Source of the DNA: Ehretia macrophylla
Taxonomy: Eukaryota; Streptophyta; Magnoliopsida; Boraginales; Ehretiaceae
NCBI GenBank assembly: GCA_037974665.1
Contig: CM075769.1
Coordinates: forward strand, 82,093,190-82,157,189
Length of the DNA stretch: 64,000 nucleotides
Direction: 5' to 3'
The position numbers were made by a program, and so were the translations under genes. The notes below the pieces were generated by a model, which was given only the letters and a program-made list of their open reading frames with translations, did not search any database and was not told where the DNA came from. This document shows, piece after piece, positions 81 through 63,479 of the stretch (the first letter of the stretch is position 1; the number at the start of each line of letters is the position of its first letter).

Positions 81-199
81 GGGGTGCAACACGAGGACTT
101 CCCAGGGGGTCACCCATCCTAGTACTACTCTCTCCCAAGCACACTTAACTTCAGAGTTCTGATGGGATCCGGTGCATTAGTGCTGGTATGATCGCACCC
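81..199 (-). rRNA. 5S rRNA: 5S rRNA gene, copy 1
   Basis: 5S rRNA is the small RNA of the large ribosomal subunit, transcribed by RNA polymerase III with TFIIIA in the nucleus. The gene is recognised from the minus-strand start GGGTGCGATCATACCAGCAC, the A box AAGTTAAGCGTGCTTGG, the C-box core GGATGGGTGACC and the end TTGCACCCC. The 119-nt length fits the plant family (about 119-121 nt). The ends pair as helix I (positions 1-6 with 113-118). This copy differs from the consensus at C47U, C57U (A box) and C67A (IE), so factor binding may be weakened. Its downstream side has a T4 run, CAA, then a longer T run. T-type promoter flank. Confidence 0.97.
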
Positions 200-758
200 G
201 TCATGTTGGGGGTAGAATTCCTTTTTGTGTTAACGATTCACAGTCGCAGCCTAGTGAGATGGCCCATTTAGAAGGCCCAATGGGCTTAACAACAACCCAT
301 CCGCTTCAATAACGCAGCATCCTCGCAAGACCTGATATCGACGCATTGTAGGGTCCTCTAATGTCCCGCGAGTAAGGTTGTCATCCTATTAACAGTTCAC
401 GACTTACGATCCGGGAGGAAAAAACAGAGCTTAATAAGAAAAGTGGCTCGAAACTGATGAAAACGTTCGATTTTGGGATCCAAAAAGGGCACAGCGAGCA
501 AGCTAGCTGCCCCTGTCTTAGAGCTCTCGGAATGCTTTCCAACAGTATGTTGTGCGCCGCGTAACTCCTTACGGATCAAAAGTTATAAACACCGGAGCGA
601 CAGATACCTGGTCACAAGCCCCACGCCCTCGGTTTGCGGGCCCAGCCTCGTGGTGAAGCGAAGTTGTATTGCCCAAGGTGCCATGGGATTCGATAATAGA
701 AATGTGGTGGATAAATTATCTTGGCAACCCTAATTGGAGGAAATAAAAATTGAAAAGG

Positions 759-877
759 GGGGTGCAACACGAGGACTTCCCAGGGGGTCACCCATCCTAG
801 CACTACTCTCGCCCAAGCACGCTTAACTTCGGAGTTCTGATGGGATCCAGTGCATTAGTACTGGTATGATCACAACC
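759..877 (-). rRNA. 5S rRNA: 5S rRNA gene, copy 2
   Basis: Differs at A77G, C29U, C18U, C6U and G3U. All three internal control boxes are unaltered. G3U breaks a helix I pair with C116; C6U leaves a wobble with G113. G-type promoter flank. Confidence 0.97.
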
Positions 878-1434
878 GTCATGGTGGGGGTAGAATTCCT
901 TTTTGTATTAATGGTTCACAGTCCCAGCCTAGAGAGATGGCCCATTTAGAAGGCCCAATGGGCTTAACAACAACCCATCCGCTTCAACAACGCAGCATCC
1001 TCGCAAGACGTGATATCCACGCATTGTAGGGCTCTCCAATATCCCAAGAGTAAGGTTGTCGTCCTTTTAACAGCTCACGACGTACGATCCGCGATGGAAA
1101 AACAGAGCTTAGTAAGAAAAGTGGCCTGAAACTTATGAAAACGTTCGATTTTGGGCTCCAAAAAGGCAAAGCAAGCAGGCTTGCTGCCCATGTCGTGGAG
1201 CACTCGGAGAGCTTTCTAATGGTATGCTGTGCCCCGCGCAACTCCTTATGGATCAAAAGTTATGGGCACCGGAGCGACAGAGACCTAGTCACAAGCCCTA
1301 TGCGCTCGGTTTACTGGCCCAGCCTCTATGTGCCGCGAAGTTGTCTTGCCCAAGGTGCCGTGGGAATCGATAATAGAAATGTGGTGGATAAAGTATCTTG
1401 GCAACCCTAATCGGAGGAAAAAAAATTGAAAAGG

Positions 1435-1553
1435 GGGGTGCAATACGAGGACGTTCGAGGGGGTCACCCATCCTAGTACTACTCTCACCCAAGCACGCTT
1501 AACTTCGGAGTTCTTATGGGATCCGGGGCATTGGTACTGGTATAATCATACCT
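1435..1553 (-). rRNA. 5S rRNA: 5S rRNA gene, copy 3 (heavily diverged)
   Basis: The most substituted full-length copy, with 13 changes: G110A, A101C, G99A, G97C (C box), C67U (IE), C39A, A27C, U21C, C18U, C10U, C6U, G5A, G1A. Length is preserved, but helix I and two control boxes are affected; it is probably a pseudogene. T-type flank. Confidence 0.93.
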
Positions 1554-2113
1554 GTCATGTTAGGGGTAGAATGCCATTTTGTATTAATGGTTCACAGTCC
1601 CAGCCTAGAGAGATGGCCCATTTAGAAGGCCCAATGGGCTTAACAACAACCCATCCGCTTCAACAACGCAGCATCCTCACAAGACTTAATATCGACGCAT
1701 TGTAGGGCTCTCTAATGTCCCGTCAGTAAGGTTGTCGTCCTTTCAACATCTCACGACGTACGATCCGGGTTGGAAAAACGGAGCTTAATAAGGAAAGTGG
1801 CCCGACACTGATGAAAACGTTCGATTTTGGGCTCCAAAAAAGGCACAGCAAGCGTGCTTGCTGCCCCCGTCGTACAGCTCTCAGAGAGCTTTCCAACGGT
1901 ATGCTGTGTGCATCGCGTAAATCCATACGGATCAAAAGTTATGGGCACCGGAGCGACGGAGACCTGGTCACAAGCCCTACGGCCTTGGTTTGCTGGCCCA
2001 GCCTCCACGTGAAGCGAAGTTGTCTTGCCCAAGGTGCCGTGGGATTCGATAATAGAAATGTGGTGGATAAAGTAACTTGGCAACCTTAACCGGAGGAAAG
2101 CAAATTGAAAAGG

Positions 2114-2230
2114 GGGGTGCAACACGAGAACTTCCCAAGGGGTCAGCCATCCTAGTACTACCTCGCCCTAGCACGCTTAACTTCGGAGTTCTGATGGGAT
2201 CCGATGCATTAGTGCTGGTATTATCGCACC
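2114..2230 (-). rRNA. 5S rRNA: 5S rRNA gene, copy 4 (two 1-nt deletions)
   Basis: 117 nt: one base is lost in the IE (around A71) and one of G1-G3 at the 5' end. Also C104U, C95U and G87C (C box), U63A (A box), C28U, C10A. Likely non-functional. First copy with a B-type promoter flank. Confidence 0.93.
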
Positions 2231-2788
2231 GTCATGTTGAGGGCACAATTCTTTTATGTGTTAACGGTTCACAGTCCCAGCCTAGTGAGATGGCCCATTC
2301 AGAAGGCCCAATGGGCTTAACAACAACCCATCCTCTTCAACAACGCAGCATCCTCGCAAGACATGATATCGACACAATGTAGGGCCCTCTAATATACCGC
2401 GAGAACGGTTGTCATCCTTTTAACAGCTCACGACGTACGATCCGGGACGAAAAAATAGAGCTTAATAAGAAAAGTCGACCGAAACTGATGAAAACGTTCG
2501 ATTTTGGGCACCAAAAAGGAAACAGCGAGCAAGCTAACTGCCCCCGTCGTAGAGCTCTCAGAGTGCTTTCAACCGGTATGCTGTACGCCGCGTAAGTCCT
2601 TACAGATCAAAAGTTATAGGCAACGGAGCGACAGAGACTTTATCACAGGCCCTATGCCGTCGGTTTGCGGGCCCAGCCTCCACGTGAAGCGAAGTTGTCT
2701 TGCCCAAGGTGCCGTGGGATTTGATAATAGAAATGTGGTGGATAAATTATCTTGGCAACCTTAACCGGAGGAAAAATTATTGAGAAGG

Positions 2789-2907
2789 GGGGTGGAACAC
2801 GAGGACTTCCCAGGGGGTCACCCATCCTAGTACTACTCTCGCCCAAGCACGCTTAACTTCGGAGTTCTAATGGGATCCGGTGCATTAGTGCTGGTATGAT
2901 CGCACCC
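2789..2907 (-). rRNA. 5S rRNA: 5S rRNA gene, copy 5
   Basis: Only G113C and C39U. Control boxes intact. G113C removes the helix I partner of C6. T-type flank. Confidence 0.97.
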
Positions 2908-3465
2908 GTCATGTTGAGGGTAGAATTCCTTTTTGTGTTAAAGGTTCACAGTCCCAGCCGAGAGAGATGGCCCATTCAGAAGGCCCAATGGTCTTAACAA
3001 CAACCCACCCGTTTGAACAACGTAGCATCCTCTCAAGACGTGATATCGACGCATTGTAGCGCCCTCGAATGTCCCGCGAGTAATGTTGTCGTCCTTTTAA
3101 CAGCTCACGTCGTACGATCCAGGACGGAAAAACAGAGCTTAATAAGAAAAGTGGCCTAAAACTAATGAAAACGTTCGATTTTGGGCTCCAAAAAGGGTAA
3201 AGCAAGCTAGCTTGCTGCCCCCGTCGTGGAGCTCTTGGAGGGCTTTCCAACGGTATGCTGGGCGCTGCGTAACTCCTTACGGATCAAAAGTTATGGGCAC
3301 CGGAGTGACGGAGACTTGATCACATTTCCTACGCCCTCGGTTTGCAGGCCTAGCCTCCATGTGAAGCGAAGTTGTCTTGCCCAAGGTGCCGTGGGATTCG
3401 ATAATAGAAATGTGGTGGATAAAGTATCTTGGCAACCTTAACAGGAGGAAAATAAATTGAAAAGG

Positions 3466-3584
3466 GGGGTGCAACACGAGGACTTCCTAGGGGGTCACCC
3501 ATCCTAGTACTACTCTCGCCCAAGCACGCTTAACTTCGGAGTTCTGATGGGATCCGGTGCATTAGTGCTGGTATGATCGCACCC
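3466..3584 (-). rRNA. 5S rRNA: 5S rRNA gene, copy 6
   Basis: Near consensus: the single change is G97A, at the last base of the C box and in a CTG (CHG) site. G-type flank. Confidence 0.98.
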
Positions 3585-4141
3585 GTCATGGTCGGGGTAG
3601 AATTCCTTTTTGTGTTAATGGTCCACAGTCCCAACCTAGAGAGATGGCACATTCAGAAGGCCCAATGGGCTTAACAACAACCCATCCGCTTCAACAACGC
3701 AGCATCCTCGCAAGACGTGATATCGACGCATTGTAAGGCTCTCTAATGTCCCGCGAGTAAGGTTGTCGTCCTTTTAACAGCTCACGACGTACGATCCGGG
3801 TCGAAAAAACAGAGCTTAATAAGAAAAGGGGCCCGAAGCTGATGAAAAAGGTCGATTTTGGTCTCGAAAAAGGGCATAGCGAGCAAGCTTGTTGCGCCCG
3901 TCATAGAGCTCTCGGAGTGCTTTTCAACGGTATGTTGTACGCCGCGTAACTCCTTACGGATCAAAATTTATGGGCATCGGAGCGATGGAGACCTGGTCAC
4001 AAGCCCTACGCCCCCGGTTTGAGGGCCCAGCCTCCACGTGAAGCGAAGTTGTCTTGCCCAAGGTGCCGTGGGATTCGATAATAGAAATGGGGTGGATGAA
4101 GTATCTTGGCAACCCTAACCGGAAGAAAAAAATTGAAAAGG

Positions 4142-4260
4142 GGGGTGCAACACGAGGACTTCCCAGTGGGTCACCCATCCTAGTACTACTCTCGCCCAAG
4201 CACGCTTAACTTCGTAGTTCTAATGGGATCCGGTGCATTAGTGCTGGTATGATCGCAGCC
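4142..4260 (-). rRNA. 5S rRNA: 5S rRNA gene, copy 7
   Basis: C94A (C box), C46A, C39U, G3C. G3C breaks a helix I pair. B-type promoter flank. Confidence 0.97.
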
Positions 4261-4817
4261 ATCATGTTGAGGGCACAATTCCTTTATGTGTTAACGGTTC
4301 ACAGACCCTGCCTAGAGAGATGGCCCATTCAGAAGGCCCAATTGGCTTAACAACAACCCATCCGCTTCAACAACGCAGCATCCTCTCAAGATGTGATATC
4401 GACGCAATGTAGGGCCCTCTAATGTCACGCGAGGAAGGTTTTCATCCTTTTAACAGTCCACGACGAACGAACCGGGACGGAAAAACAGAGCTTAATAAAA
4501 AAAGTGGCTCAAAACTGATGAAAACGTTCGATTTTGGGCGCCAAAAAGGGCAAAGCAAGCAAACTTGCTGCCCCCGTCGTAGAGCTCTCAGAGAGCTTTC
4601 CAACGGTATGCTGTGCGCCGCGTAACTCCTTACAGATCAAAAGTTTTGGGCACCGGAGTGACGGAGAACTGGTCACAAGCCCTACGCCCTTAGTTTGCGG
4701 GCCCAGCCTCTACGTGAAGCGGAGTTGTCTTGCCCAAGGTGCCGTGGGATTCGAGAATAGAATTGTGGTGGATAAAGCAGCTTGGCAACCCTAACCGGAG
4801 GAAAAAAAATTGAAAAG

Positions 4818-10208: not shown

Positions 10209-10327
10209 GGAGTGCAACACGAGGACCTCCCAGGGGCTCACACATCCTAGTACTACTCTCGCCCAAGCACGCTTAACTTTGGAGTTTTGATAGGATCCAG
10301 TGCGTTAGTGCTGGTATGATCGCACCC
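10209..10327 (-). rRNA. 5S rRNA: 5S rRNA gene, copy 16
   Basis: Nine changes: C117U, A101G, C91G and G86U (C box), G48A, G41A, C36U, C29U, U24C. B-type flank. The next gene is 929 bp away because of the rearranged spacer between them. Confidence 0.96.
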
Positions 10328-11137
10328 GTCATGTTGATGGCACAATTCCTTTATGTGTTAACGATTCACAGCCCAGCCTAGAGAGATGGGCCATTCAGAC
10401 GGTCCAATGGGCTTAACAACAACCCATCTGCTTTAATAACGCAGTATCCTCGCAGGATGTGATATCGACGCGTTGTAGGGCCCTCTAATGTCCCACGAGT
10501 AAGGTTGTCGTCCTTTTAACAGCTCACGATGTACAATCCGAAAAGGAAAAACAGAGCAAAATGAGAAAAGTGGCCCAAAACTAATGAAAACGTTCAATTT
10601 TGGGCTCCAAAAAAGGGCACAACGAGCAAGCTAGCTATACCGTTTTTGATGGCATAATTCCTTTATGTATTAACGGTTAACAGTCCCAGCCTAGAGAGAT
10701 GGCCCATTCAGAAGGCCTCATGGGCTTAACAACAACCCATCTGCTTTAATAACGCAGTATCCTCGCAGGATGTGATATCGACGCGTTGTAGGGCCCTCTA
10801 ATGTCCCACGAGTAAGGTTGTCGTCCTTTTAACAGCTCACGATGTACGATCCGGAAAGGAAAAACATAGCAAAATGAGAAAGCTAGCTACCCTCGTCGTG
10901 GATCTCTCGGAGAGCTTTCCAATGGTATGCTGTACGCCGTGTTACTCCTAACGGATCAAAAGTTATGGGCACCGGAGCAACGGAGACCTGGTCACAAGCC
11001 CTACGCCCTCGGTTTGCGGGCCCAGTCTCCACGTGAAGCGAAGTTGTCTTGCCCAAGGTGCCGTTGGATTTGATAATAGAAATGTGGTGGATAAAGTAGC
11101 TTGGCAACCCTAACCGGAGGAAAAAAAATTGAAAAAG
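10328..11137. repeat. Rearranged double spacer lacking a 5S gene
   Basis: Two incomplete B-type spacers are joined with no gene between them. The first (about 10328-10640) runs to CAAGCTAGCTA in mid-spacer, then jumps back to the spacer start (CCGT then TTGATGG). The second continues to copy 17 but lacks about 60 bp at 10878-10885, where AATGAGAAA joins directly to GCTAGCTACC. The two copies share private changes at a 313-bp offset (for example CTTTAATAACGCAG from 10430 and from 10743; CGATGTAC and GGAAAGG in both). The best reading is a direct duplication of a spacer fragment followed by a deletion. Confidence 0.9.
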
Positions 11138-11256
11138 GGAGTGCAACACGAGGACTTCCCAGGGGGTCCCCCATCCTAGTAGTACTCTCGTCCAAGCACA
11201 CTTAACTTCGGAGTTCTGATGGGATCCGGTGCATTATTGCTGGTATGATCGCACCC
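11138..11256 (-). rRNA. 5S rRNA: 5S rRNA gene, copy 17
   Basis: C117U, U88G (C box), G75C, G66A, C57U (A box), C20A. T-type flank; its right-hand spacer shares private changes with that of copy 20. Confidence 0.97.
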
Positions 11257-11814
11257 GTCATGTTGGGGGTAGAATTCCTTTTTGTGTTAACGGTTCACAG
11301 TCCCAGCCTATAGAGCTGGCCCATTCAGAAGGCCCAAAGGGCTTAACAACAACCCATCCGCTTCAACAACGCAGCATCCTCGCAAGACGTGATATCGATG
11401 CATTTTAGGGCCCTCAAATGTCCCGCGAGTATGGTTGTCATCCTTTTAACAGCTCACGACATACGATCCGGGATGGAAAAACAGAGTTTAATAAGAAAAT
11501 TGGCCCGAAACTGATGAAAATGTTCGATTTTGGGCTCCAAAATGGGCAAAGCGAGATAACTCGCTGCCCCAGTCGTAGAGCTCTCAGATAGCTTTCCAAC
11601 GGTATGCTGTGCGCCACGTAACTTCTTATGGATTAAAAGTTATGGGCACCAGAGCGAAGGAGACGTGGTCACAAGCCATACGCCCTCGGTTTGCGGGCCC
11701 AGCCTCCACGTGAAGCAAAGTTGTCTTGCCCAAGGTGCCGTGGGATTCGAGAATAGAAATATGGCGGATAAAGTATCTTGGCAACCCTAACCGGAGGAAA
11801 AAAAATTTAAAAGG

Positions 11815-11933
11815 GGAGTGCAACACGAGGACTTCCCAGGGGGTCACCCATCCTAGTACTACTCTCGTCCAAGCAGGCTTAACTTCGGAGTTCTGATGGG
11901 ATCCGAAGCATTAGTGCTGGTATGATCGCACCC
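11815..11933 (-). rRNA. 5S rRNA: 5S rRNA gene, copy 18
   Basis: C117U, G66A, G58C (A box), C28U, A27U. The set G58C+C28U+A27U recurs in copy 21, three units on. T-type flank. Confidence 0.97.
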
Positions 11934-12491
11934 GTCATGTTGGGGGTAGAATTCCTTTTTGTGTTAAAGGTTCACAGTCCCAGCCTAGAGAGATGGCCCA
12001 TTCAGAAGGCCAAATGGGCTTAACAACAACCCATCCGCTTCAACAACGCAGCATCCTCGTAAGACGTGATATCGACGCATTGTAGGGCCCTCTAATGTCC
12101 CACGAGTAAAATTGTCGTCCTTTTAACAGCTCACGACGTACAATCTGGGATGGAAAAACAGAGCTTAATAAGAAAAGTGGCCAGAAACTGAAGAAAACTT
12201 TCAATTTTGGTCTCCAAAAAGGGCCAAGCAAGCAAGTTAGCTGCCCCCGTCGTAGAGCTCTCAGAGAGCTTTCCAACGGTATGTTGTGCGCCGCGTTACT
12301 CCTTACGGTTCAAAAGTTATGGGCACAGGAGCGAAAGAGACTTGGTCACAAGCCCTACGCCCTCGGTTTGCGGGCCCAGCCTCCACGTGAAGCGAAGTTG
12401 TCTTGCCCAAGGTGCCGTGGGATTCGATAATAGAAATGTGGTAGATTAAGTAGCTTGGCAACCGTAACTGGAGGAAAAAATATTGAAAAGG

Positions 12492-12610
12492 GGAGTACAA
12501 CACGAGGACTTCCCAGGGGGTCACCCATCCTAGTATTACTCTCGCCCAAGCACGCTTAACTTCGGAGTTCTGATGGGATATGGTGCATTAGTGCTGGTAT
12601 GATCACACCC
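12492..12610 (-). rRNA. 5S rRNA: 5S rRNA gene, copy 19 (AU30-31 variant)
   Basis: C117U, C114U, G75A, G31U, G30A, C6U. Control boxes intact. Carries the double change GG30-31 to AU, otherwise seen only between 40.2 and 52.1 kb; it removes the BamHI site and two helix III pairs. T-type flank, so outside the later linked haplotype. Confidence 0.97.
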
Positions 12611-13169
12611 ATCCTGTTGGGGGTAGAATTCCTTTTTGTGTTAACGGTTCACAGTCCCAGCCTAGAGAGCTGGCCCATTCAGAAGGCCCAATGGGCTTAA
12701 CAACAACCCATCGGCTTCAACAATACAGCATCCTAACAAGCCGTGATATCGATGCATTGTTGGACCCTCTAATGTCCCGCGAGTAAGGTTGTCTTCCTTT
12801 TAACAGCTCACGACGTACGATCCGGGTCAGAAAAATAGAGCTTAATAAGAAAATTGGCCCGAAACTGATGAAAACGTTCAATTTTGGGCTCCAAAAAAGG
12901 GCAAAGCAAGCAAGCTAGCTGCCCCCGTCGCAGAGCTCTCGGAGAGCTTTCCAATGGTATGCTGTGCGCCGCGTAACTCTTTACGGATCAAAAGTTATGG
13001 GCACTGGAACGACGGAGACATGGTTACAAGCCCTACGCCCTCGGTTTGGGGACCCAGCCTCCACGTGAAGCGAAGTTGTCTTGCCAAGGGTGCCGTGGGA
13101 TTCGATAATAGAAATATGGTGGATAAAGTATCTTGGCAACCCTAACCGGAGGAAAAAAAATTGAAAAGG

Positions 13170-13288
13170 GGAGTGCAACACGAGAACTTCCCAGGGGGTC
13201 ACATATCCTAGTACTACTCTCGCCCAAGCACGTTTAACTTCGGAGTTCTGATGGGATCCGGTGCATTAGTGCTGGTATGATCACACCC
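13170..13288 (-). rRNA. 5S rRNA: 5S rRNA gene, copy 20
   Basis: C117U, C104U, G86U and G85A (C box), G56A (A box), C6U. B-type flank. Confidence 0.97.
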
Positions 13289-13846
13289 GTCATGTTGACG
13301 GCACAATTCTTTTTTGTGTTAACGGTTCACAGTCCCAGACTAGAGAGATTGCCCATTCAGAAGGCCCAAAGGGCTTAACAACAACCCATCCGCTTCAACA
13401 ACGCAGCATCCTCGCAAGACGTGAAATCGATGCATTTTAGGGCCCTCAAATGTCCCGCGAGTAAGGTTGTCGTCCTTTTAACAGCTCACGACGTACGATC
13501 CGGGACTGGAAAACAGAGCTTAATAAGAAAAGTGGCCCAAAACTGATGAAAACGTTCGATTTTGGGCTCCAAACAGGTCAAAGCAAGCAGGCTTGCTGCC
13601 CTTGACGTAGAGCTCTCGGAGAGCTTTCCAAAGGTATGTTGTGCGCCGCGTAACTCCTTACGGATCAAACGTAATGGGCACCGGAGCGACAGAGACCTGG
13701 TCACAAGCCATACGCCCTCGGTTTGTGGGCCCAGCCTCCACGTGAAGCGAAGTTGTCTTAACCAAGGTGCCGGGGGATTCGATAATAGAAATGTGGTGGA
13801 TAAAGTAGCTTGGCAACCCTAATCGGAGGAAAAAAAATTGAAAAGG

Positions 13847-13965
13847 GGGGTGCGACACGAGGACTTCCCAGGGGGTCACCCATCCTAGTACTACTCTCGC
13901 CCAAGCAGGCTTCACTTCGGAGTTCTGATAGGATCCGAAGCATTAGTGCTGGTATGATCGCACCC
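13847..13965 (-). rRNA. 5S rRNA: 5S rRNA gene, copy 21
   Basis: U112C, G58C and U53G (A box), C36U, C28U, A27U. Three changes shared with copy 18, 2032 bp away. T-type flank. Confidence 0.97.
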
Positions 13966-14521
13966 GTCATGTTGGGGGTAGAATTCCTTTTTGTGTTAAA
14001 GGTTCACAATCCCAGCCTAGAGAGTTGTCCCATTCAGAAGGCCCAATGGGCTTAACAACAACCCATCCGCTTCAACAACGCAACATCCTTGCAAGACGTG
14101 AAATCGAAGCATTGTAGGGCCCTCTAATGTCCCGCGAGTAAGGTTGTCGTCCTTTTAACAGCTCACGACATAAGATCCAGGACGGAAAAATAGAGCATAA
14201 TAAGAAAAGTGGCCCAAAAATGATGAAAACGTTCGATTCTGGGCTCAAAAAAGGTACAGCAAGCAAGTTAGCTGCCCCCGTCATAGTGCCCTCAGAGAGC
14301 TTTCCGACGGTATGCAGTGCGCCGCGTAACTCCTTATGGATCAAAAGTTGTGGGCACTGGAGCGACGGAAACCTGGTCACGAGCCCTACGCCCTCAGTTT
14401 GCTGGCCCATCCTCCACGTGAAGCGAAGTTGTCTTGCCCAAGGTGCCGTAGGCTTCGATAATAGAAATGTGGAGGGTAAAGTATCTTGGCAACCCTAACC
14501 GGAGCAAAAAAAATTGAAAAA

Positions 14522-14640
14522 GGGGTGCAACACGAGGACTTCCCAGGGGGTCACCCATCCTAGTACTACTCTCGCCCAAGCACGCTTAACTTCGGAGTTC
14601 TGATGCGATCCAGTGCATTAGTGTTGGTATGATCACACCC
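14522..14640 (-). rRNA. 5S rRNA: 5S rRNA gene, copy 22
   Basis: C35G, C29U, G17A, C6U. Control boxes intact. B-type flank in the sub-form with CATAATTCC and TATGTATT, shared with copy 23 and the duplicated spacer at 10.65 kb. Confidence 0.97.
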
Positions 14641-15199
14641 GTCATGTTGATGGCATAATTCCTTTATGTATTAAAGGTTTACAGTCCAAGCCTAGAGAGA
14701 TGGCCCATTCAGAAGGCCCAATGGGCTTAACAACAACCCATTCGCTTTAACAACGCACTATCCTCACAAGATGTGATATCGACGTGTTGTAGGGCCCTCT
14801 AATGTCCCGCGAGTAAGGTTGTCGTCCTTTTAACAGCTCACGATGTACGATTTGGGAAAGAAAAACAAAACAAAATTAGAAAAATGGCCTGAAACTAATG
14901 AAAACGTTCGATTTTGGGCTCCAAAAAGGGCAACGCAAGAAAGATAGCTGCCCCCGTCGTAGAGCTCTTAGAGTGCTTTCCAACGGTATGTTGTGCGCCA
15001 CGTAACTCCTTACGGATCAAAAGGTATAGGCACCGGAGCGAAAGAGACTTGGTCACAAGCCCTACGCCCTCGGTTTGCGGGCCCAGCCTCCACGTGAAGT
15101 GAAGTTGTCTTGCCCATGGTGCCGTGGGATTCGATATTAGAAATGTGGTGGATAAAGTATCTTGGCAACCCTAACCGGAGGAAAAATAAATTGAAAAGG

Positions 15200-15318
15200 G
15201 GAGTGCAACACGAGGACTTCCCAAGGGGTCACCCATCCTACTACTACTCTCGCCCAAGCACGCTTAACTTCGGAGTTCTGATGGGATCCAGTGCATTAGT
15301 GCTGGTATGATCGTACCC
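15200..15318 (-). rRNA. 5S rRNA: 5S rRNA gene, copy 23
   Basis: C117U, C95U (C box), C78G, C29U, G5A. B-type flank, same sub-form as copy 22, its neighbour. Confidence 0.97.
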
Positions 15319-15877
15319 GTCATGTTGATGACATAATTCCTTTATGTATTAAAGGTTCACAGTCCCAGCCTAGAGAGCTGGCCCATTCAAAAGGCCCAAT
15401 GGGCTTGACAACAACCCATCCGGTTCAACAACGCAACATCCTCGCAAGACGTGATATCGATGCGTTGTAGGGCCCTCTAACGTCCCGCGAGTAAGGTTGT
15501 CGTCCTTTTAACAGCTCACGACGTACGATCCGGGACGGAAAAACAAAGCTTAATAAGAAAAGTGGCCCGAAAATGATGAAAAAGTTTGATTTTGGGCTCC
15601 AAAAAGGGCAAAGCTAGCGAGCTAGCTGCCCCCCTCGTAGAGCTCTCAGAAAGCTTTCCAACGGTATGTTGTGCGCCACGTAACTCCTTACGGATCAAAA
15701 GTTATGGGCACCGGGGCGATAGAGACTTGGTCACAAGCCCTAAGCCCTCGGTTTACGGGCCCAGCCTCCACGTGAAGCGAAGTTGTCTTGCCCAAGGTGC
15801 CTTGGGATCCGATAATAGAAATGTGGTGGATTATATAGCTTGGCAACCCTAACCGGAGAAAAAAAATTTTGAAAAGG

Positions 15878-15996
15878 GGAGTGCAACACGAGGACTTCCC
15901 AGGGGGTCACCAATCCTAGTACTACTCTCGCCCAAGCACGCTGAACTTCGGAGTTCTGATGGGATCCGGTGCATTAGTGCTGGTATGATCGCACCC
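15878..15996 (-). rRNA. 5S rRNA: 5S rRNA gene, copy 24
   Basis: C117U, G85U (C box), A54C (A box). T-type flank. Confidence 0.97.
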
Positions 15997-16553
15997 GTCA
16001 TGTTAGGGGCAGAATTCATTTTTGTGTTAACGGTTCACAGTCCCAGCCTAGAGAGCTGGCCCATTCAGAAGGCCCAATAGGCATAACAACAACCCATCCG
16101 CTTCAACAACGCAGCATCGTCGCAAGACGTGATACCGACGCATTGGAGGGCCTTCTAATGTCCTGCGAGTATGGTTGTCGTCCTTTTAACAGCTCACAAC
16201 GTACGATCCGAGACGTAAAAACAGAGCTTAATAAGAAAATGGCCCGAAACTGATGAAAACGTTCGATTTTGGGCTCCAAAAAAGGCATAGCGAGCAAGCT
16301 CGCTGCCCCCGTCATAGAGCTCTCGGAGAACTTTCCAACGGTATGCTGTCAGCCGCGTAACTCCTTACGGATCAAAAGTTATGGGCCCCGGAGCGACGGA
16401 GACCTGGTCCCAAGCCCTACGCTCTCGGTTTATGGGCCCAGCTTCCACGTGAAGCGAAGTTGTCTTGCCCAAGGGGCCGTGGGATTCGCTAATTGAAATG
16501 TGGTGGATAAAGTATCTTGGCAACCCCAACCGGAGGAAAAAAAATTGAAAAGG

Positions 16554-16672
16554 GAAGTGCAACACGAGGACTTCCCAGGGGGTCACCCATCCTATTACTA
16601 CTCTCGCCCAAGCACGCTTAACTTCGGAGTTCAGATGGGATCCGGTGCATTAGTGCTGGTATGATCGCACCC
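16554..16672 (-). rRNA. 5S rRNA: 5S rRNA gene, copy 25
   Basis: C118U, C117U, C78A, A40U. Control boxes intact; the two helix I changes give G-U wobbles. T-type flank. Confidence 0.97.
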
Positions 16673-17230
16673 ATCATGTTGGGGGTAGAATTCCTTTTTG
16701 TGTTAACGGTTCACAGTTCCAGCCTAGAGAGTTGGCCCATTCAGAAGGCCCAATGGGCTTAACAACTACCGATCCGCTTCAACAACGCCGCATCCTCGCA
16801 AGACGTGATCTCGATGCATTGTAGGGCCCTCTAATGTCTCGTGAGTATGGTCGTCATCCTTTTAACAGTTCACGGCGTACGATTCGGGACGGAAAAACAG
16901 AGCTTAATAAGTAAAGTGGCACAAAACTGATGAAAACGTTCAATTTTGGGCTCCAAAAAGGGAGAAGCAAGCAAGCTTGCTGCCCCCGTCGTAAAGCTCT
17001 CAAAGAGCTTTCCAACGGTATGTTGTGCGCCGCGTAACTTCTCACGGATCAAAAGTAATGGGCAACGGAGCGACCGAGACCTAGTCACAAGCCCTACGCC
17101 CTCTGTTTGCGGGCCCAGCCTCCATGTGAAGCGAAGTTGACTTGCCCAAGGTGCCGTGGGATTCGATAACAGAAATGTGGTGGATAAAGTAGCTTGGCAA
17201 CCCTAACCGGAGGAAAAAAAATTGAAAAGG

Positions 17231-17349
17231 GGAGTGCAACACGAGGACTTCCCAGGGGGTTACCCATCCTAGTACTACACTAGCCCAAGCACGCTTAACT
17301 TCGGAGTTATGATGGGATCCGGTGAATTATTGCTGGTATGATCACACCC
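17231..17349 (-). rRNA. 5S rRNA: 5S rRNA gene, copy 26
   Basis: C117U, G89A (C box), A71U and G68U (IE), G41U, G25U, C20A, C6U. IE disrupted. T-type flank. Confidence 0.96.
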
Positions 17350-17906
17350 GTCATATTGGGGGTAGAATTCCTTTTTGAGTTAACGGTTCACAGTCCCAGC
17401 CTAGAGAGCTACCCATTCAGAAGGCGCAATGGGCTTAACAACAACCCATCCGCTTCAACAACCCAGCATCCTCGCAAGACGTGAAATCGATGCATTGTAG
17501 GGCCCTCTAATGTACCGCGAGTAAGGCTGTCGTCCTTTTAACAGCTCACGACGTACGATTCGGGACGAAAAATCAGGGCTTTATAAGAAAAGTGGCCCAA
17601 AACTGATGAAAATGTTCGATTTTGGGCTCCAAAAAGGGAAAAGCGAGCAAGTTAGCTACCCCCGTCGTAGAGATCTCAGAGAGCTTTCCAACCGTATGCT
17701 GTGCGCCGCGTAACTCCTTACGTATCAAAAGCTATGGGCACCGGAGCGACAGAGACTTGGTCACAAGCCCTACGCCCTCAATTTGCGGGCCCAGCCTTCT
17801 CGTGAAGCGAAGTTGTCTTGCCCAAGGTGCCGTGGGATTCGATAATGGAAATGTGGTGGATAAAGTAGCTTGGCAACCCTAACCGGAGGAAAAAAAATTT
17901 AAAAGG

Positions 17907-18025
17907 GGAGTGCAACACGAGGACTTCCCAGGGGGTTACCCATCCTAGTACTACTCTCGCCCAAGCACGCTTAACATCGGAGCTCTGATGGGATCCGGTG
18001 CATTAGTGCTGGTATGATCGCACCC
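17907..18025 (-). rRNA. 5S rRNA: 5S rRNA gene, copy 27
   Basis: C117U, G89A (C box; shared with neighbour 26), A50U (first base of the A box), A43G. T-type flank. Confidence 0.97.
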
Positions 18026-43617: not shown

Positions 43618-43736
43618 GGGGTGCAACACGAGGACTTCCCCGGTGGTGACCCATCCTAATACTACTCTCGCCCAAGCACGCTTAACTTTGGAGTTCTGAT
43701 TGGATCCAGTGCATTAGTGAGGGTATGATCGCACCC
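43618..43736 (-). rRNA. 5S rRNA: 5S rRNA gene, copy 65
   Basis: U96G, C93A and G89C (C box), C78U, G48A, C36A, C29U, G17U, A16C. C93A+G89C shared with copy 67. G-type flank (CAAGGTGGGGG). Next full gene is 975 bp away. Confidence 0.96.
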
Positions 43737-44005
43737 GTCAAGGTGGGGGTAGAATTCCTTTTTGTGTTAACGGTTCACAGTCCCAGCCTAGAGAGATGGC
43801 CCATTCAGAAGGCCCAATGGGCTTAACAACAACCCATCCACTTCAACAACGCAGCATCCTCGCAAGACGTGATATGGTCGCGTTGTAGGGCCCTCTAACG
43901 TCCCGCGAGTAATGTTGTCGTCCTTTTAACAGCTCGTGACGAACGATCCGGGACGAAAAAATAGAGCTTAATAAGAAAAGCGGGCCGAAACTGATGAAAA
44001 CGTTC

Positions 44006-44044
44006 GATGCGATCCGGTGCATTAGTGCTGGTATGATCGCACCC
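44006..44044 (-). pseudogene. 5S rRNA gene fragment, copy 66 (5' 39 nt only)
   Basis: Mid-spacer sequence ending CGTTCGAT joins directly to the 5S gene at RNA position 39. The bases GAT at 44006-44008 belong to both sides, so the break used a 3-bp microhomology. About 379 bp (distal half of a spacer and RNA 40-119) are lost. The fragment keeps the start site and a G-type promoter flank but has no A, IE or C box and no terminator, so Pol III transcription is not expected. It carries C35G, as in copies 12 and 22. Confidence 0.95.
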
Positions 44045-44592
44045 GTCATGGTAGGGGTAGAATTCTTTTTTGTGTTAACGGTTCACAGTCCCAGCTTGGA
44101 GAGATGGCTCATTCAGAAGGACTAGTGGGATTAAGAACAACCCATCCGCTTCAACATCGCAACATCCTCGCAAGACGTGATATCGACGCATTGTACCGCC
44201 CTCTAATGTCCCACGTGTAAGGTTGTCGTCTTTTTACCAGCTCACGACGCACGATCCGGTACGGAAAAACAGAGCTTAATAAGAAAAGTTACTCGAAACT
44301 GATGAAAACATTCGATTTTGGGAACCAAAAAAGGCAAAGCGAGAAAGCTTGCTGCCCCCGTCGTAGAGCTCTCGGAGAGCTTTCCAACGGTATGCTGTGC
44401 GCCGCATAACTCCTTACGGATCAAAAGTTATGGGCAAGGAGACCTGGTCACAAGCCCTAGCCCTCGGTTTGCGAGCCCAGCCTCCACGTGAAGCGAAGTT
44501 ATCTTGCCCAAGGTGCCGTGGGATTCGATAATAGAAATGTGGGGGATAAAGTATCTTGGCAACCCTAACCGGAAGAAAAAAAATAGAAAAGG

Positions 44593-54849: not shown

Positions 54850-55428
54850 ATCGTGTTGGGGGTAGAATTCATTTTTGTGTTAACGGTTCACAGTCCCAGC
54901 CTAGAGAGATGGCCCATTCAAAAGGCCCAATGGGCTTAACAACAACCCATCGGCTTCAACAACACAGCATCCTCGCAAGACGTGATATCGATGCATTGTA
55001 GGGCCCTCTAATGTCCCCCGAGTAAGATTGTTGTCCTTTTAAAAGCTCACGACGTATGATCCGGGATGGAAAAACATAGCTAATTAAGAAAAGTGGCCTG
55101 AAACTGATGAAAACGTTCGATTTCGGGCTCCAAAAAGGGCACAGCGAGCATGTTTGTTGCCCCCGTCATAGAGCTCTCGGAGAGCTTCCAATGGTATGCT
55201 GTGCGCCGCGTAACTACTTAAGGATCAAAAGTTATGGGCACCGGAGCGACGGAGACCTGATCACAAGCCCTATGCCCTCGGTTTGCTGGCCCAGCCTCCA
55301 CGTGAAGCGAAGTTGTCTTGCCCAAAGTGCTGTGGGATTCGATAATAGAAATGTGGTGGATAAAGTATCTTGGCAACCCTAACCGGAGGAAAAAAAATTG
55401 AAAAGTGGGGTGCAACACGAGGACTTCC

Positions 55429-55446
55429 CAGGGGGTCACCCATCCT
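55429..55446 (-). promoter_or_regulatory. C box of copy 83 (internal control region)
   Basis: RNA positions 80-97, including the core GGATGGGTGACC on the minus strand: the main TFIIIA contact in 5S genes by family knowledge. Ends in a CTG site where C95U and G97A recur in other copies. Confidence 0.85.
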
Positions 55447-55453
55447 AGTACTA

Positions 55454-55459
55454 CTCTCG
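55454..55459 (-). promoter_or_regulatory. Intermediate element of copy 83
   Basis: RNA positions 67-72, CGAGAG on the minus strand; contains one of the six CpG sites. Confidence 0.8.
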
Positions 55460-55461
55460 CC

Positions 55462-55476
55462 CAAGCACGCTTAACT
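55462..55476 (-). promoter_or_regulatory. A box of copy 83
   Basis: RNA positions 50-64, AGTTAAGCGTGCTTG on the minus strand; shared Pol III element. Contains the 57-58 CpG. Confidence 0.85.
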
Positions 55477-56081
55477 TCGGAGTTCTGATGGGATCCGGTG
55501 CATTAGTGCTGGTATGATCGCACCCGTCATGGTGGGGGTAGAATTCATTTTTGTGTTAACGGTTCACAGTCCTAGCCTAGAGAGATGGCCCATTCAGAAG
55601 GCCCAATGGGCTTAACAACAACCCATTCGCTTCAACAACGCAGCATCCTAGCAAGACGTGATATCAACGCGTTGTAGGGCCCTCTAATGTCCCGTGAGTA
55701 AGGTTGTCGTCCTTTTAACAACTCATGACGTATGATATGGGATGGAAAAACAGAGCTTAATAAGAAAAGTGGTCCGAAACTGATGAAAACGTTCGATTTT
55801 GGGCTCCAAAATGGGCACAACGAGCAAGCTTGCTGCCCCCAATGTAGAGCTCTCAGAGTGCTTTCCAACGGTATGCTGTGCGCCGCGTTACTTCTTACGG
55901 ATCAAAAGTTATGGGCACCGGAGCGACGGATACCTGGTCACAAGCCCTACGTCCTCGGTTTGCGGGCCCACCCTACACGTGACGTGAAGTTGTCTTGCCC
56001 AAGGTGCCGTGGGATTCGATAATAGAAATGTGGTGGATAAAGTATCTTGGCAACCCAAACCGGGGGAAAAAAATTGAAAAG

Positions 56082-58094: not shown

Positions 58095-58096
58095 GG

Positions 58097-58772: not shown

Positions 58773-58890
58773 GGGGTGCAACACGAGGACTTCCCAGGGG
58801 TCACCTATTCTAGTACTACTCTCGCCCAAGCACGCTTAACTTCGGAGTTCTGATGGGATCCGGTGCATTAGTGCTGGTATAATCGCACCC
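58773..58890 (-). rRNA. 5S rRNA: 5S rRNA gene, copy 88 (1-nt deletion)
   Basis: 118 nt: one C of C91-95 lost (C box). Also G85A and G82A (C box), C10U. T-type flank. Confidence 0.95.
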
Positions 58891-59447
58891 GTCATGTTAG
58901 GGGTAGAATTCCTTTTTGTGTTAAAGGTTCACAGTCCCAGCCTAGAGAGATGGCCCATTCAGAAGGCCCAATGGGCTTAACAACAACCCATCCGCTTCAA
59001 CAATGCACCATCCTCGCAAGACGTGATATCAACACATTGTAGCGCCCTCTAATGTCCCGATACTTTGGGTGTCGGCCTTTTAACAGCTCACGATGTACGA
59101 TCTGGGACGAAAAAACACAGCTTAATAAGAAAAGTGGCCCGAAACTGATGAAAACGTTCGATTTTGGGCTCCAAAAAGGGCACAGCAAGCAAGCTGCTGT
59201 GCCCGTCGTAGAGCTCTCGTACAGCTTTCCAACGGTATGCTGTGCGCCGTGTAACTCCTTACGAATCAAAAGTTATGGGCTCCGGAGCGAAGGAGACCTG
59301 GTCACAAGCCCTACGCCCTCGGTTTGTTGGCCCAGCCTCCACGTGAAGCGAAGTTGTCTTGCCCAAGGTGCCGTGGGATTCGATAATAGAAATGTGGTGG
59401 ATAAAGTGTCTTGGGAACCCTAACCGGAGAAAAAAAAAATGAAAAGG

Positions 59448-59566
59448 GGGGTGCAACACGAGGACTTCCCAAGGGGTCACCCATCCTAGTACTACTCTCG
59501 CCCAAGCACACTTAACTTCGGAGTTCTGATGGGATTCGGTGCATTAGTGCTGGTATGATCGAACCC
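59448..59566 (-). rRNA. 5S rRNA: 5S rRNA gene, copy 89
   Basis: C95U (C box), C57U (A box), G31A, G5U. T-type flank. Confidence 0.97.
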
Positions 59567-60123
59567 GTCATGTTGGGGGTAGAATCCCTTTTTGTGTTAA
59601 CAGTTGACAGTCCCAGCCTCGAAAGATGGCCCATTCAGAAGGCCCAATGGGCTTAACAACAACACATCCGCTTCAACAATGCAGTATCCTAGCAAGACGT
59701 GATATCGAAGCATTGTAGCGCCCTCTAATGTCCCACGAATAAGGTTGTCGTCCTTTTAACAGCTCACGACGTACAAACCGGGACGGAAAAACATAGCTTA
59801 ATAAGAAAAGAGGCCCCAAACTGACGAAAACGTTTGATTTTAGGCTCCAAAAAGAGCACAGTGAGCAAGCTTGCTGCGCCAGTCGTAGAGCTCTCTGAGA
59901 GCTTTCCAATGGTATGCTGTGTGCCGCGTTACTCCTTATAGATCAAAAGTTATGTGCACCGGAGTGATAGAGACCTGCTCACAAGCCCTACGCCCTCGGT
60001 TTACGGGCCCACCCTCCACGTGAAGCGAAGTTGTCTTGCCAAAGGTGCCGTGGTATTCGATTACAGAAATGGGGTGGATAAAGTGTCTTGGCAACCCTAA
60101 CCGGAGGAAAAAATTTGAAAAGG

Positions 60124-60242
60124 GGCGTGCAACACGAGGACTTCCCAGGGGGTCACCCATCCTAGTACTACTCTCGCCCAAGCACGCTTAACTTCGGTGT
60201 TCTGATGGGATCCGGTGCATTAGTGCCGGTATGATCGCACCC
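60124..60242 (-). rRNA. 5S rRNA: 5S rRNA gene, copy 90
   Basis: C117G, U45A, A16G. Control boxes intact; C117G breaks the helix I pair with G2. T-type flank. Next full gene is 1210 bp away. Confidence 0.97.
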
Positions 60243-60752
60243 GTCATGTTGGGGGTAGAATTCCTTTTTGTGTTAACGGTTCACAGTCGCAGCCTAGAGA
60301 TATTGCCCATTCAGAAGGCCCAATGGGCTTAACAACAACCCATCCGCTTCAACAACGCAGCATCCTCGCAAGACGTGATATCGACGCATTGTAGGGCCCT
60401 CTAATGTCCCGCGGGTAAGGTTTTCGTCCTTTTAAATGCTCACGACGTACGTTCCGGGACGGAAAAACAGAGCTTAATAAGAAAAGTGGCCCGAAACTAA
60501 TGAAAACGTTCGATTTTGGATTCCAAAAAGGACACAGCGAGCAAGCTGATGCGCCCGTCGTAGAACTCCCGGAGTGCTTTCCAACGGTATGATGTGCGCC
60601 GCGTAACTCCTTACAGATTAAAAGTTATGGGCAGCTGAGCGACGGAGACCTGGTCATAAGCGCTACGCCCTCGGTTTGCGGGCCTAGCCTCCACGTGTAG
60701 CGGAGGTGTCTTGCCCAAGGTGCTGTGGGATTCGATAATAGAAATGTGGCGG

Positions 60753-60776
60753 ATTAGTGCTGGTATGATCGCACCC
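60753..60776 (-). pseudogene. 5S rRNA gene fragment, copy 91 (5' 24 nt only)
   Basis: Spacer sequence GAAATGTGGCGG joins the 5S gene at RNA position 24 (ATTAGTGC on plus), with AT shared by both sides. About 142 bp, covering the end of the spacer, the terminator and RNA 25-119, are deleted. The 24 remaining nt match the consensus and a full T-type flank follows, but no internal control box remains. Not expected to be transcribed. Confidence 0.95.
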
Positions 60777-61333
60777 GTCATGTTGGGGGTAGAATTCCTT
60801 TTTGTGTTAACAGTTCACAGTCCCAGCCTAGAGAGATGGCCAAATAAGAAGGCCCAATGGGCTTAACAACAACCCATCCGCTTCAACAACTCAGCATCCT
60901 CACAAGATGTGATATCGGCGCATTGTAGCGCCCTCTAATGTCCAGCGAGTAACGTTGTCGTCCTTTTAAAAGCTCACGACGTACGTTCCGGGACAGAAAA
61001 ACAAAGCTTAATAAGAAAAGTGGCCCGAAACTGATGATAACTTTCGATTTTGCCCTCCAAAAAGGGCACAGCGAGCAAGCTGCTGCGCCCGTCATAGAGC
61101 TCTCAGAGAGCATTCCAACGGTAGGTTGTACGCCACGTAACTCCTTACGGATCAAAAGTTATGGGCACCGGAGCGACGTAGACCTGGTCACATGCCCTAC
61201 GCCCTCGGTTTGCGGGTCCAGCCTCTATGAGAAGCGAAGTTGTCTTGCCCAAGGTGCCGTGGGATTCGATAATAGAAATGTGGTGGATAAAGTATCTTGG
61301 CAACCCTAACCGATGCAAAAAAAATTGAAAATG

Positions 61334-61452
61334 GTAGTACAACAGGAGGACTTCCCAGGGGGTCATCCTACCTAGTACTACTCTCGCCCAAGCACGCTTA
61401 ACATCGGAGTTCTGATGGGATCCGGTGCATTTGTGCTGGTATGATCGCACCC
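61334..61452 (-). rRNA. 5S rRNA: 5S rRNA gene, copy 92
   Basis: C118A, C117U, C114U, G108C, G87A, U84A and A83U (C box), A50U (A box), U21A. T-type flank. The gene-proximal T run is weak. Confidence 0.96.
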
Positions 61453-62008
61453 GTCATGTTGGGGGTATAATTCCTTTCTGTGTTAACGGTTCACAGTCCC
61501 AGCCTAGAGAGATGGCCCATTCAGAAGGCCCAATGGGCTTAACAATAACCCATCTGCTTCAACAACGAAGCATCCTCGCAAGACGTGATATAGACGCATT
61601 GTAGCGCCCTTTAATATCCCGCGAGTAAGGTTGTCGTCCTTTTAAAAGCTCACGACGCACGATCCGGTAAGGAAAAACAGAGCATAATAAGAAAAGTGGC
61701 CTGAAACTGATGAAAACGTTCTATTTTGGGCTCCAAAAATGGCACAGCGTGCAAGCTACTACGCCCATCGTAGACCCCTTGGAGTGCTTTCCAACGGTAT
61801 GTGGTGCGCCGCGTAATTCCTTACGGATCAAAAGTTATGGGCACCGGAGCGACAGAGACTTGGTCACAAGCCCTACGCCCTCAGTTTGCGGGCCCATCCT
61901 CCACGTGAAGCGAAGTTGTCTTGCCCAAGGTGCCATGGGATTCGATAATAGAAATGTGGTGGATAAAGTATCTTGCAACCCTAAACGTAGGAAAAAAAAT
62001 TGAAAAGG

Positions 62009-62127
62009 GGGGTGCAAAATGCGGACTTCCCAGGGGGTCACCCATCCTAGTACTACTCTCGCCCGAGCACGCTTAATTTCGGAGTTCTAATGAGATCCGG
62101 TGCATTAGTGCTGGTATGATCGCACCC
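62009..62127 (-). rRNA. 5S rRNA: 5S rRNA gene, copy 93
   Basis: G110U, G108A, U106G, U63C and G51A (A box), C39U, C35U. T-type flank. Confidence 0.97.
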
Positions 62128-62685
62128 GTCATGTTGGGTGTAGAATTCCTTTTTGTGTTAACAGTTCACAATCCCAGCCAAGAGAGATTGCCCAATCAGA
62201 AGGCCCAATGGGTTTAACAACAACCCATCTACTTCAACAACGCAGCATCCTCGCAAGACGTGATATCGACGCATTGTACGACCCTCTAATTTCCCGCGAG
62301 TAAGGTTGTTGTCCTTTTAACAGCTCACGACGTACGATCCGGGATGGGAAAACAGAGCTTAATAAGAAAAGTGTCCCGAAACTGATGAAAATGTTCAATT
62401 TTGGGCTCCAAAAACGGCAAAGCAAGCAAGCTTGCTACCCCCGTCGTAGAGCTCTCGGAGAACTTTACAACGGTACGCTGTGCGCCGCGTAACTTCTTAC
62501 GGATCAGACCTTATGGGCACCGGAGCGACGGAGACCTGGTAACAAGCCCTACGCCCTTGGTTTGCGGGCCCAGCCTCCACGTGAAGTGAAGTTGTCTTGC
62601 CCAAGGTGCCGTGGCATTCGATAATAGAAATGTGGTGGATAAAGTATCTTGGAAACCCTAACCGGGGTAAAAAAAATTGAAAAGA

Positions 62686-62804
62686 GGGGTGCAACACGAG
62701 GACTTCCTAGGGGGTCACCCATTCTAGTACTACTGTCGCCCAAGCACGCTTACCTTCGGAGTTCTGATGGGATCCGGTGCATTACTGCTGGTATGATCGC
62801 ACCC
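62686..62804 (-). rRNA. 5S rRNA: 5S rRNA gene, copy 94
   Basis: G97A and G82A (C box), G70C (IE), U52G (A box), C20G. T-type flank. Confidence 0.97.
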
Positions 62805-63360
62805 GTCATGTTGGGGGTAGAATTCCTTTTTGTGTTAACGGTTCACTGTCCCAGCCTAGAGAGATGGCCCATTCAGAAGGCCCAATGGGCTTAACAACAA
62901 CCCATCCGCTTCAACAACGCAGCATCCTCGCAAGACGTGATATCGACACATTGTAGCGCCCTCTAATGTCTCGCGAGTAAGGTTGTCGTCCTTTTAAAAG
63001 CTCACGACGTACGATCCGGGACAAAAAAACAGAGCTTAATAAGAAAAGTGGCCCGAAACTGATGAAAACATTCGAATTTAGGCTCCAACAAGGGCACAGC
63101 AAACAAGCATGATGCCCCCGTCATAGAGCTTTCGGAGAGCTTTCCAACAGTATGCTGTGCGCTCGTAACTCGTTACGGATCAAAAGTTATGGGCACCGGA
63201 GCGACAGAGACTTGTTCACAAGCCCTACGCCCCGATTTGCGGGCCCAGCCTCCACGTGATGCGAAGTTGTCTTGCCCAAGGTGCTGTGGGATTCGATAAT
63301 AGAAATGGGGTGGATAAAGTATCTTGGCAACCCTAACCGGAGCAAAAAATATTAAAAATG

Positions 63361-63479
63361 GGGGTACAACACGAGGACTTCCCAGGGGGTCACCCATCCT
63401 AGTACTACTCTCACCCAAGCACGCTTAACTTCGGAGTTCTGATGGGATCCCGTGCATTAGTGCTTGAATGATCGCACCC
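63361..63479 (-). rRNA. 5S rRNA: 5S rRNA gene, copy 95
   Basis: C114U, C67U (IE), C29G, C15A, A13U. T-type flank. Last gene in the window. Confidence 0.97.

Follow-up and report, generated by a model that had tools for sequence, protein, structure and literature searches.

The window analysed here is a 64,000-nucleotide stretch of the Ehretia macrophylla genome (C6:82,093,190-82,157,189, in an assembly of 1.58 Gb in 20 contigs) occupied by a tandem array of 93 5S ribosomal RNA (rRNA) genes and their spacers, in which C-to-T and G-to-A changes are concentrated at CG and CHG sites. Read from the sequence, this pattern is very probably best explained by deamination of cytosines methylated in the germline at CG and CHG, the genes being little protected, in amplified 5S arrays that have since been frozen. 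A preliminary description of the window had proposed long-term methylation with deamination from recurrent changes at individual gene sites. That proposal is supported: the excess survives tree correction, strict filtering and a comparison of segmental duplicates, and the two strands are nearly symmetric.

Transitions at CG and CHG sites

The window and 20 fetched 10-kb stretches were divided into units, each running from one gene start to the next, with L001-L008 excluded as being located within longer fetched stretches. The alignment holds 347 of 354 units (600-720 bp); seven outside this range were dropped, three of them irregular units of the window, so that the window statistics rest on 89 of 92 units. 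The G at gene position 1, paired with the last spacer base, was counted as a thirteenth gene CG base in the unit rates. In the window spacer, transitions per site per copy amounted to 0.107 at CG, 0.098 at CWG (W being A or T), 0.066 at CCG, 0.029 at CHH and 0.012 at A/T sites, and transversions to 0.035, 0.054, 0.028, 0.034 and 0.026 in the same order. The gene gave transition rates of 0.079, 0.100, 0.039, 0.027 and 0.006. Relative to CHH, window transitions were raised 3.65-fold at CG (site bootstrap 3.02-4.38), 3.49-fold at CWG (2.60-4.49) and 2.18-fold at CCG (1.43-3.35), with transversion ratios of 1.07 (0.80-1.44), 1.54 (1.00-2.34) and 0.91 (0.59-1.31), respectively. None of the 90 CG sites was without a transition, compared with 35 of the 214 CHH sites, and C>T or G>A accounted for 1755 of the 3824 differences from the consensus, 1218 of these being in CG or CHG. 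After a strict filter that excludes homopolymers, the vicinity of gaps and any site where a variant exceeds 15%, the transition rates were 0.082 at CG, 0.072 at CWG, 0.048 at CCG and 0.026 at CHH. The rates of C>T and G>A were 0.111 and 0.095 at CG (a small difference, p=0.02) and 0.092 and 0.105 at CWG (p=0.24), a near-equality that is expected of methylation on both strands.

Shared descent was corrected for by parsimony on a FastTree tree of the 89 window units. Independent transitions per gene site then numbered 5.69 at CG, 6.50 at CWG, 3.00 at CCG and 2.04 at CHH; CG and CWG exceeded CHH (p=2e-5 and p=2e-4), whereas CCG in the gene did not differ from it (p=0.26). Gene transversions showed no difference between contexts (CG 2.31, CWG 2.33, CCG 3.00, CHH 2.04 per site; all p>0.1). 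The spacer excess was also retained (CG p=1e-29, CWG p=2e-10), and the transition ratios to CHH in gene and spacer were 2.78 and 3.35 for CG, 3.18 and 2.68 for CWG, and 1.47 and 2.06 for CCG. The corresponding transversion ratios were 1.13 (CG) and 1.14 (CWG) in the gene and 1.04 (CG) and 1.38 (CWG, p=0.044) in the spacer. The transitions that the preliminary description had called independent-looking thus persist in 2.7-3.4-fold excess at CG and CWG when counted per site with shared descent corrected for.

The same contrast appears site by site in the alignment of all 93 window genes (Table 1). A transition was carried by a mean of 7.75 genes at the 12 CG sites, 8.83 at the six CWG sites, 4.0 at the three CCG sites and 2.57 at the 47 CHH sites (Mann-Whitney, CG vs CHH p=8e-6; CWG vs CHH p=2e-4). 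Sixteen of the 17 hand tallies made earlier at CG and CHG sites were exact, the seventeenth being G30A, which was put at 5 and counted at 13. G58A had been left out of those tallies; its single carrier, despite seven carriers of C57T at the partner base, means that one CG base is not hot (G58C occurs in four genes). Two features of the window spectrum lie outside these contexts: A>T is raised (0.0168 per site per copy vs 0.0111 in other old arrays, with window A>G at 0.0114), and C>A is nearly twice as frequent as C>G.

Other 5S arrays

The CG/CHG excess was found in gene and in spacer, and in the other tested arrays when pooled. The four least diverged arrays (L020, L024, L025 and L026; genes about 1.5% diverged), pooled over 56 units, gave ratios to CHH of 3.52 for CG and 2.82 for CWG, and five older stretches (66 units) gave 3.56 and 3.30; the spectra of L017, L019 and L028 entered as pooled data only, and L018 stands outside the spectra. 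Because arrays diverged by about 1.5% show nearly the same CG:CHG:CHH ratio, the signature alone is not proof of a dead array: it marks germline methylation. L025 (C6:73.34 Mb) and L026 (C6:74.32 Mb) are mixtures of about 640- and 677-bp units and, like L020 and L024, may represent 5S genes that were homogenised recently. On C4, a 6.8-kb interruption of a 5S array contains a 99.3%-identical direct repeat whose length is at least 1.85 kb (C4:30.058-30.065 Mb; L015:8151-10000 and L016:2486-4334), which looks like a recent long terminal repeat (LTR) retrotransposon insertion.

Selection and gene function

The state of the window genes and the behaviour of duplicates elsewhere speak for decay of the array. 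The window genes carry a mean of 6.0 changes, no two of the 93 sequences are the same, and all three internal promoter stretches, with putative box limits, are unchanged in 15 of the 93. Measured against the consensus, the window genes hold 521 changes compared with 700 predicted by context-matched spacer rates (0.74); elsewhere the figures are 102 of 196 (0.52) in the young arrays, 206 of 296 (0.70) in the C4 array and 168 of 200 (0.84) in the older set. Variants carried by one or two copies form a class in which slow sites are over-represented, because fast sites seldom yield rare variants; within it, the window shows no deficit (187 vs 198.7 expected, 0.94), while in the young arrays the deficit remains (76 vs 114, 0.66; p=9e-5).

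Segmental duplicates give a separate view of selection. C12 carries two inverted copies, L022 (67.27 Mb) and L023 (69.13 Mb), which are 99.69% identical over 9878 bp and gap-free, and a stretch at C2:87.97 Mb matches them at 97.1%. Between C2 and C12, genes differ at 66 of 1770 sites and spacers at 199 of 7912 (p=0.006, genes more, context not corrected), and genes are thus not protected between these duplicates. Because neither the rare window variants nor the duplicates show a deficit, much of the deficit in the window genes probably reflects spacer variation older than the array. The genes would have been protected earlier but not now. Some constraint is likely on the genes of the young arrays. 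The poor purifying selection suggested by the preliminary description is supported by the duplicates, although the window genes are less diverged than the spacers when both are compared with the consensus.

These data also bear on whether the window is a normal working 5S locus, methylated even where active, in which variation is tolerated and homogenisation is slow. The least diverged arrays have a similar signature, gene divergence falls 26% below that of context-matched spacer in the window and 48% below it in the young arrays, one window gene is equal to the consensus, and the variant expressed in Cardamine is C>T-shifted (PMC13087485). However, a functional plant 5S locus is expected to be homogeneous under concerted evolution, and the window array has 93 different genes, distances that are nearly flat along the array and a star-like tree. 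With the load of changes per gene, the small number of genes whose promoter stretches are all unchanged, the lack of protection between duplicates and hardly any homogenisation with distance, a working locus is unlikely, while surviving better than the other alternatives considered below.

Independence of the units

The window units form nearly a star, with a common start and then separate histories, because distance is nearly flat with separation, the spread of distances is near that of shuffled data and variants are unclustered. Mean unit distance (INDEPENDENCE) is 0.112 between neighbours and 0.116 at 80 units apart. Pairwise distances have a standard deviation of 0.0135, near the 0.0105-0.0124 of three shuffles in which sites were shuffled singly, and 91% of the length of the FastTree tree lies in terminal branches. 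Pairs of variants within 10 bp number 2557 in the window vs 2590 expected. Multi-base mutation or conversion tracts, an idea raised by closely spaced differences between the segmental duplicates, would make changes outside the CG/CHG transitions cluster; the window shows no such clustering (z about 1), whereas the units of the young arrays do (236 close pairs vs 181 expected, z 4.4).

Small exceptions to the star give some room to shared descent, in which a few ancestral CG/CHG subfamily variants were spread by amplification and one change was counted repeatedly. Fifteen of 88 internal branches have support above 0.9 and a length greater than 0.005. Carriers of C107T (6 of 10 matched) and C95T (14 of 19) are somewhat closer to one another than random units are (0 and about 5% of 400 draws), in a test where only 5-14 carriers per site were matched to units by name. 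C117T lies in neighbouring genes, with 9 adjacent carrier pairs vs 1.96 expected and a cluster at 10,209-18,025; it is a lineage marker and not a recurrent mutation. The preliminary description had taken C117T, C114T and C36T alike for lineage markers; C114T (1 adjacent pair vs 0.60 expected) and C36T (0 vs 0.32) show no such adjacency. Shared descent is nevertheless very unlikely as the source of the excess, given that the tree is mostly terminal, the tree-corrected counts keep the excess, distance is hardly tied to array position, all 90 CG sites are affected and the segmental duplicates show the same contexts.

Duplicates and base-calling error

Over 14 unit pairs, the two C12 copies have 538 variants from the consensus in common, against 31 that are private to one copy. 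The excess is present in the common set (CG 0.108, CWG 0.105, CCG 0.084, CHH 0.032), and unpolarised C/T differences between C2 and C12 per 1000 sites are 56.6 at CG, 67.0 at CWG, 56.8 at CCG and 16.3 at CHH. The 29 newest differences, those between the two C12 copies polarised by C2, comprise 14 transversions and transitions at CG (6), CCG (3), CWG (0), CHH (3) and A/T (3).

Miscalled methylated cytosines in an assembly of long reads could imitate C>T and G>A, and such errors do occur in nanopore reads. The preponderance of shared over private variants in the C12 copies, with the excess in the shared ones, makes this explanation highly improbable; the C12 copies could themselves represent two haplotypes or a duplicated assembly of one stretch, but the C2 stretch that matches them is on a separate contig. 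The C12 pairs (67.27/69.13 Mb and 68.015/68.388 Mb, the second pair recognised by equal score and opposite strand only) are mirrored about 68.2014 Mb, as in a palindrome with 0.9-Mb arms or two haplotypes joined in the assembly.

Proposed mechanism

An amplification burst or homogenisation would once have made the units nearly identical, after which they would have diverged singly, gene conversion and unequal exchange being almost absent. Germline methylation would affect both strands of the arrays at CG and CHG, and because 5-methylcytosine deaminates to T, transitions at CG and CHG would arise at about three to four times the CHH rate, while selection would no longer maintain most of the genes. 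The methylation responsible would be MET1-like for CG and CMT3-like for CHG, and the window array would be silent heterochromatin. A CMT3-type methylase prefers CWG over CCG, and the weaker effect at CCG fits such a preference. In Arabidopsis, the silencing of subsets of 5S genes has been linked to CG and CHG methylation, and small interfering RNAs (siRNAs) match silenced spacer transcripts (PMC2691480); deamination has been invoked for the C>T/G>A bias of a 5S variant in Cardamine (PMC13087485).

The near-symmetric strands, the similar rates at CWG and CG with CCG between, the little preference for CpA or TpC and the lack of clustering argue for maintenance methylation with spontaneous deamination, not an editing enzyme. 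Although fungal repeat-induced point mutation (RIP) targets repeats (PMC10462631), a RIP-like or APOBEC-like enzyme can practically be dismissed, as CAG and CTG are alike (5.47 and 6.20 per site) with little CpA preference, CHH rates vary little with the 3' base (CA 0.033, CC 0.026, CT 0.027) or the 5' base (AC 0.024, CC 0.032, GC 0.032, TC 0.020), and window changes are unclustered.

Several observations weigh against methylation and decay as the whole account. CWG transversions are raised too (1.54-fold in the window; p=0.044 in the spacer and p=0.001 after the strict filter), so that part of the CWG excess may not be deamination; other old arrays, with a CWG transversion ratio of 0.84, are without this excess. 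Double changes of CG to TA number 35 vs 44.6 expected if independent, but the GC to AT control is similarly short (6 vs 10.3) and the comparison is non-discriminating. In the same test of whether a change at one base lowers the mutability of its partner, CWG double hits number 4 vs 13.7 expected (p=0.002). The deficit of changes in the window genes could mean constraint, and in the young arrays, where the deficit is larger, constraint is likely. Taken singly, and with small numbers, L024 has a spacer CWG rate of 0.018 vs 0.014 at CHH (5 changes), and the gene of L020 shows a single CG transition. In the C4 array, gene CG sites are also rich in transversions (34 vs 16.9 expected from the spacer). 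Finally, the newest C12 differences fit the CG effect but give CWG no support, being too few for a test.

Share of the genome

Arrays were present in all 20 fetched 10-kb stretches, which lie on 8 contigs and were chosen at 5S matches or beside the window. Among 99 sample points, 17 were at least half 5S-unit sequence (17%, 95% interval 10-26%), a share that is probably biased upward because most points were non-random and C13-C20 were thinly sampled. Twenty points were random (3 positive), and the other 79 were placed at round coordinates, in part on contigs already known to carry matches. C13-C20 gave 1 positive of 19 in one point set, with C17 absent, and two all-N points and L089, at 45% cover, were counted as misses. 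The 20 points on C6 gave 8 positives, confined to 70-82.5 Mb, the most densely sampled part. Sorted by eye, 10 of the 99 points (10%, 5-18%) were clearly of the 677-bp kind, corresponding to some 116,000-415,000 units; of the remaining positive points, four were a 340-bp satellite and three were undecided between the kinds. The 340-bp tandem satellite corresponds to unit positions 165-502, which is spacer only, without the gene, and is 84-89% identical to the unit consensus. A genome scan with RF00001 returned 274,483 first-look candidates, of which 47 were scored, and is not reliable as a copy count. In flax, 5S copy number is about 10^5.

Although the counts are rough, the 5S unit has the long tandem arrays, many loci and large genome share of a satellite, and may be a leading satellite of this genome. 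The data suggest 10^5 or more 5S units in the 1.58-Gb genome, frozen rather than homogenised. Ribosomal DNA (rDNA) is a textbook case of concerted evolution; the window array shows hardly any, and consequently offers dozens of nearly independent copies per 64 kb under little visible selection. It yields per-context mutation rates for the plant germline without bisulfite data, with CG about equal to CWG, CCG between and CHH slow. It is quite possible, if somewhat short of probable, that 5S rDNA has largely escaped concerted evolution here and has become a leading satellite, its gene-plus-spacer units numbering 10^5 or more across many chromosomes and each staying frozen from its amplification onward. 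If this is true, each unit is a natural mutation-accumulation line, the arrays are a fossil record of germline CG, CHG and CCG methylation, and the scale exceeds the 5S amplifications found in print.

Organization of the window array

All 93 genes score above the RF00001 gathering score of 38 (range 73.6 to 115.2 bits by cmscan). Gene-to-gene spacing is 674-679 bp in 86 of 92 intervals, and the remaining six measure 657, 662, 668, 929, 975 and 1210 bp. The array extends at least 20 kb to each side, with 60 gene matches, some partial, in four 10-kb stretches. The gene that is identical to the consensus served as the numbering reference, gene position p being window position 55526 - p.

Table 1. 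Features of the 5S array in the window, with transition counts at gene CG and CWG sites placed on the reference gene, and loci of the 340-bp satellite elsewhere
Feature	Position	Strand	Remarks
Head-to-tail array of 93 5S rRNA genes, ~677-bp units	81..63479	-	Rfam RF00001 cmscan and spacing
Sole gene identical to array consensus (1/93)	55407..55525	-	Best Rfam score, 115.2 bits; 0 differences
CG, gene 6-7	55519..55520	-	C6T 10, G7A 6 of 93
CWG, gene 15-17	55509..55511	-	C15T 5, G17A 6 of 93
CG, gene 29-30	55496..55497	-	C29T 10, G30A 13 of 93
CWG, gene 39-41	55485..55487	-	C39T 9, G41A 6 of 93
CG, gene 47-48	55478..55479	-	C47T 6, G48A 6 of 93
CG, gene 57-58	55468..55469	-	C57T 7, G58A 1 of 93
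CG, gene 67-68	55458..55459	-	C67T 6, G68A 7 of 93
CWG, gene 95-97	55429..55431	-	C95T 19, G97A 8 of 93
CG, gene 107-108	55418..55419	-	C107T 10, G108A 11 of 93
Stretch with most C117T carriers (10/14)	10209..18025	-	Adjacent pairs in window 9 vs 1.96 expected
929-bp interval (norm ~677)	10209..11137	-	Contains 236-bp near-duplicate, 94.5%
975-bp interval	43618..44592	-	308-bp tandem duplication at 43703-44316
Fragment of a further 5S gene	44005-44044		Inside the 975-bp interval
Irregular 1210-bp interval	60124..61333	-	Omitted from unit alignment
340-bp satellite loci	C6:70, C1:35, C1:50, C3:65, C10:20 Mb		L037, L051, L052, L058, L095

Comparison with known systems

The mutational mechanism is already known for plant rDNA. 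A literature search of partial coverage found no plant 5S satellite of such a share and no CG/CHG-resolved study of 5S decay. The nearest likeness is in the pikes (Esox), where, in the available part of the report, 5S genes occur on many chromosomes in more than 20,000 copies, a figure that the authors' experimental estimate raises to more than 200 thousand or about 5% of the genome, and are heavily methylated at CG (PMC5437419). As in Ehretia, amplified 5S arrays lie on many chromosomes, with some inverted blocks. However, the Esox genes have stayed homogeneous, with no enrichment of methylation-type mutations (p>0.05; PMC5437419), whereas in Ehretia the enrichment is 3-4-fold at CG, extends to CHG, and most genes carry several changes. 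The decay that the Esox authors expected but did not see (PMC5437419) is seen in the Ehretia array, which is thus a direct test of whether methylation decays amplified rRNA genes.

Among plants, the C>T/G>A-shifted 5S variants of Cardamine and Arabidopsis likewise come from methylated 5S loci, and cytosine deamination is named as a source of variants there. They differ in that a fixed, expressed variant with more than 70% C>T/G>A is described there, while in Ehretia many copies decay independently and the changes are resolved by CG, CWG, CCG and CHH (PMC13087485, in part). The 5S pseudogenes of wheat, Thinopyrum and Solanaceae likewise represent many degenerate copies in a plant genome (cited in PMC11070557); in Ehretia the arrays are very large and the spectrum is context-resolved and tree-corrected. 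In animals, 5S sequences have likewise turned into satellite DNA in the frog PcP190 family (PMC11675491) and in Hoplias malabaricus (PMC5437419). Unlike these satellites, as far as the available parts of those reports describe them, the Ehretia arrays keep the whole 677-bp gene-plus-spacer unit, with the spacer-only 340-bp satellite alongside.

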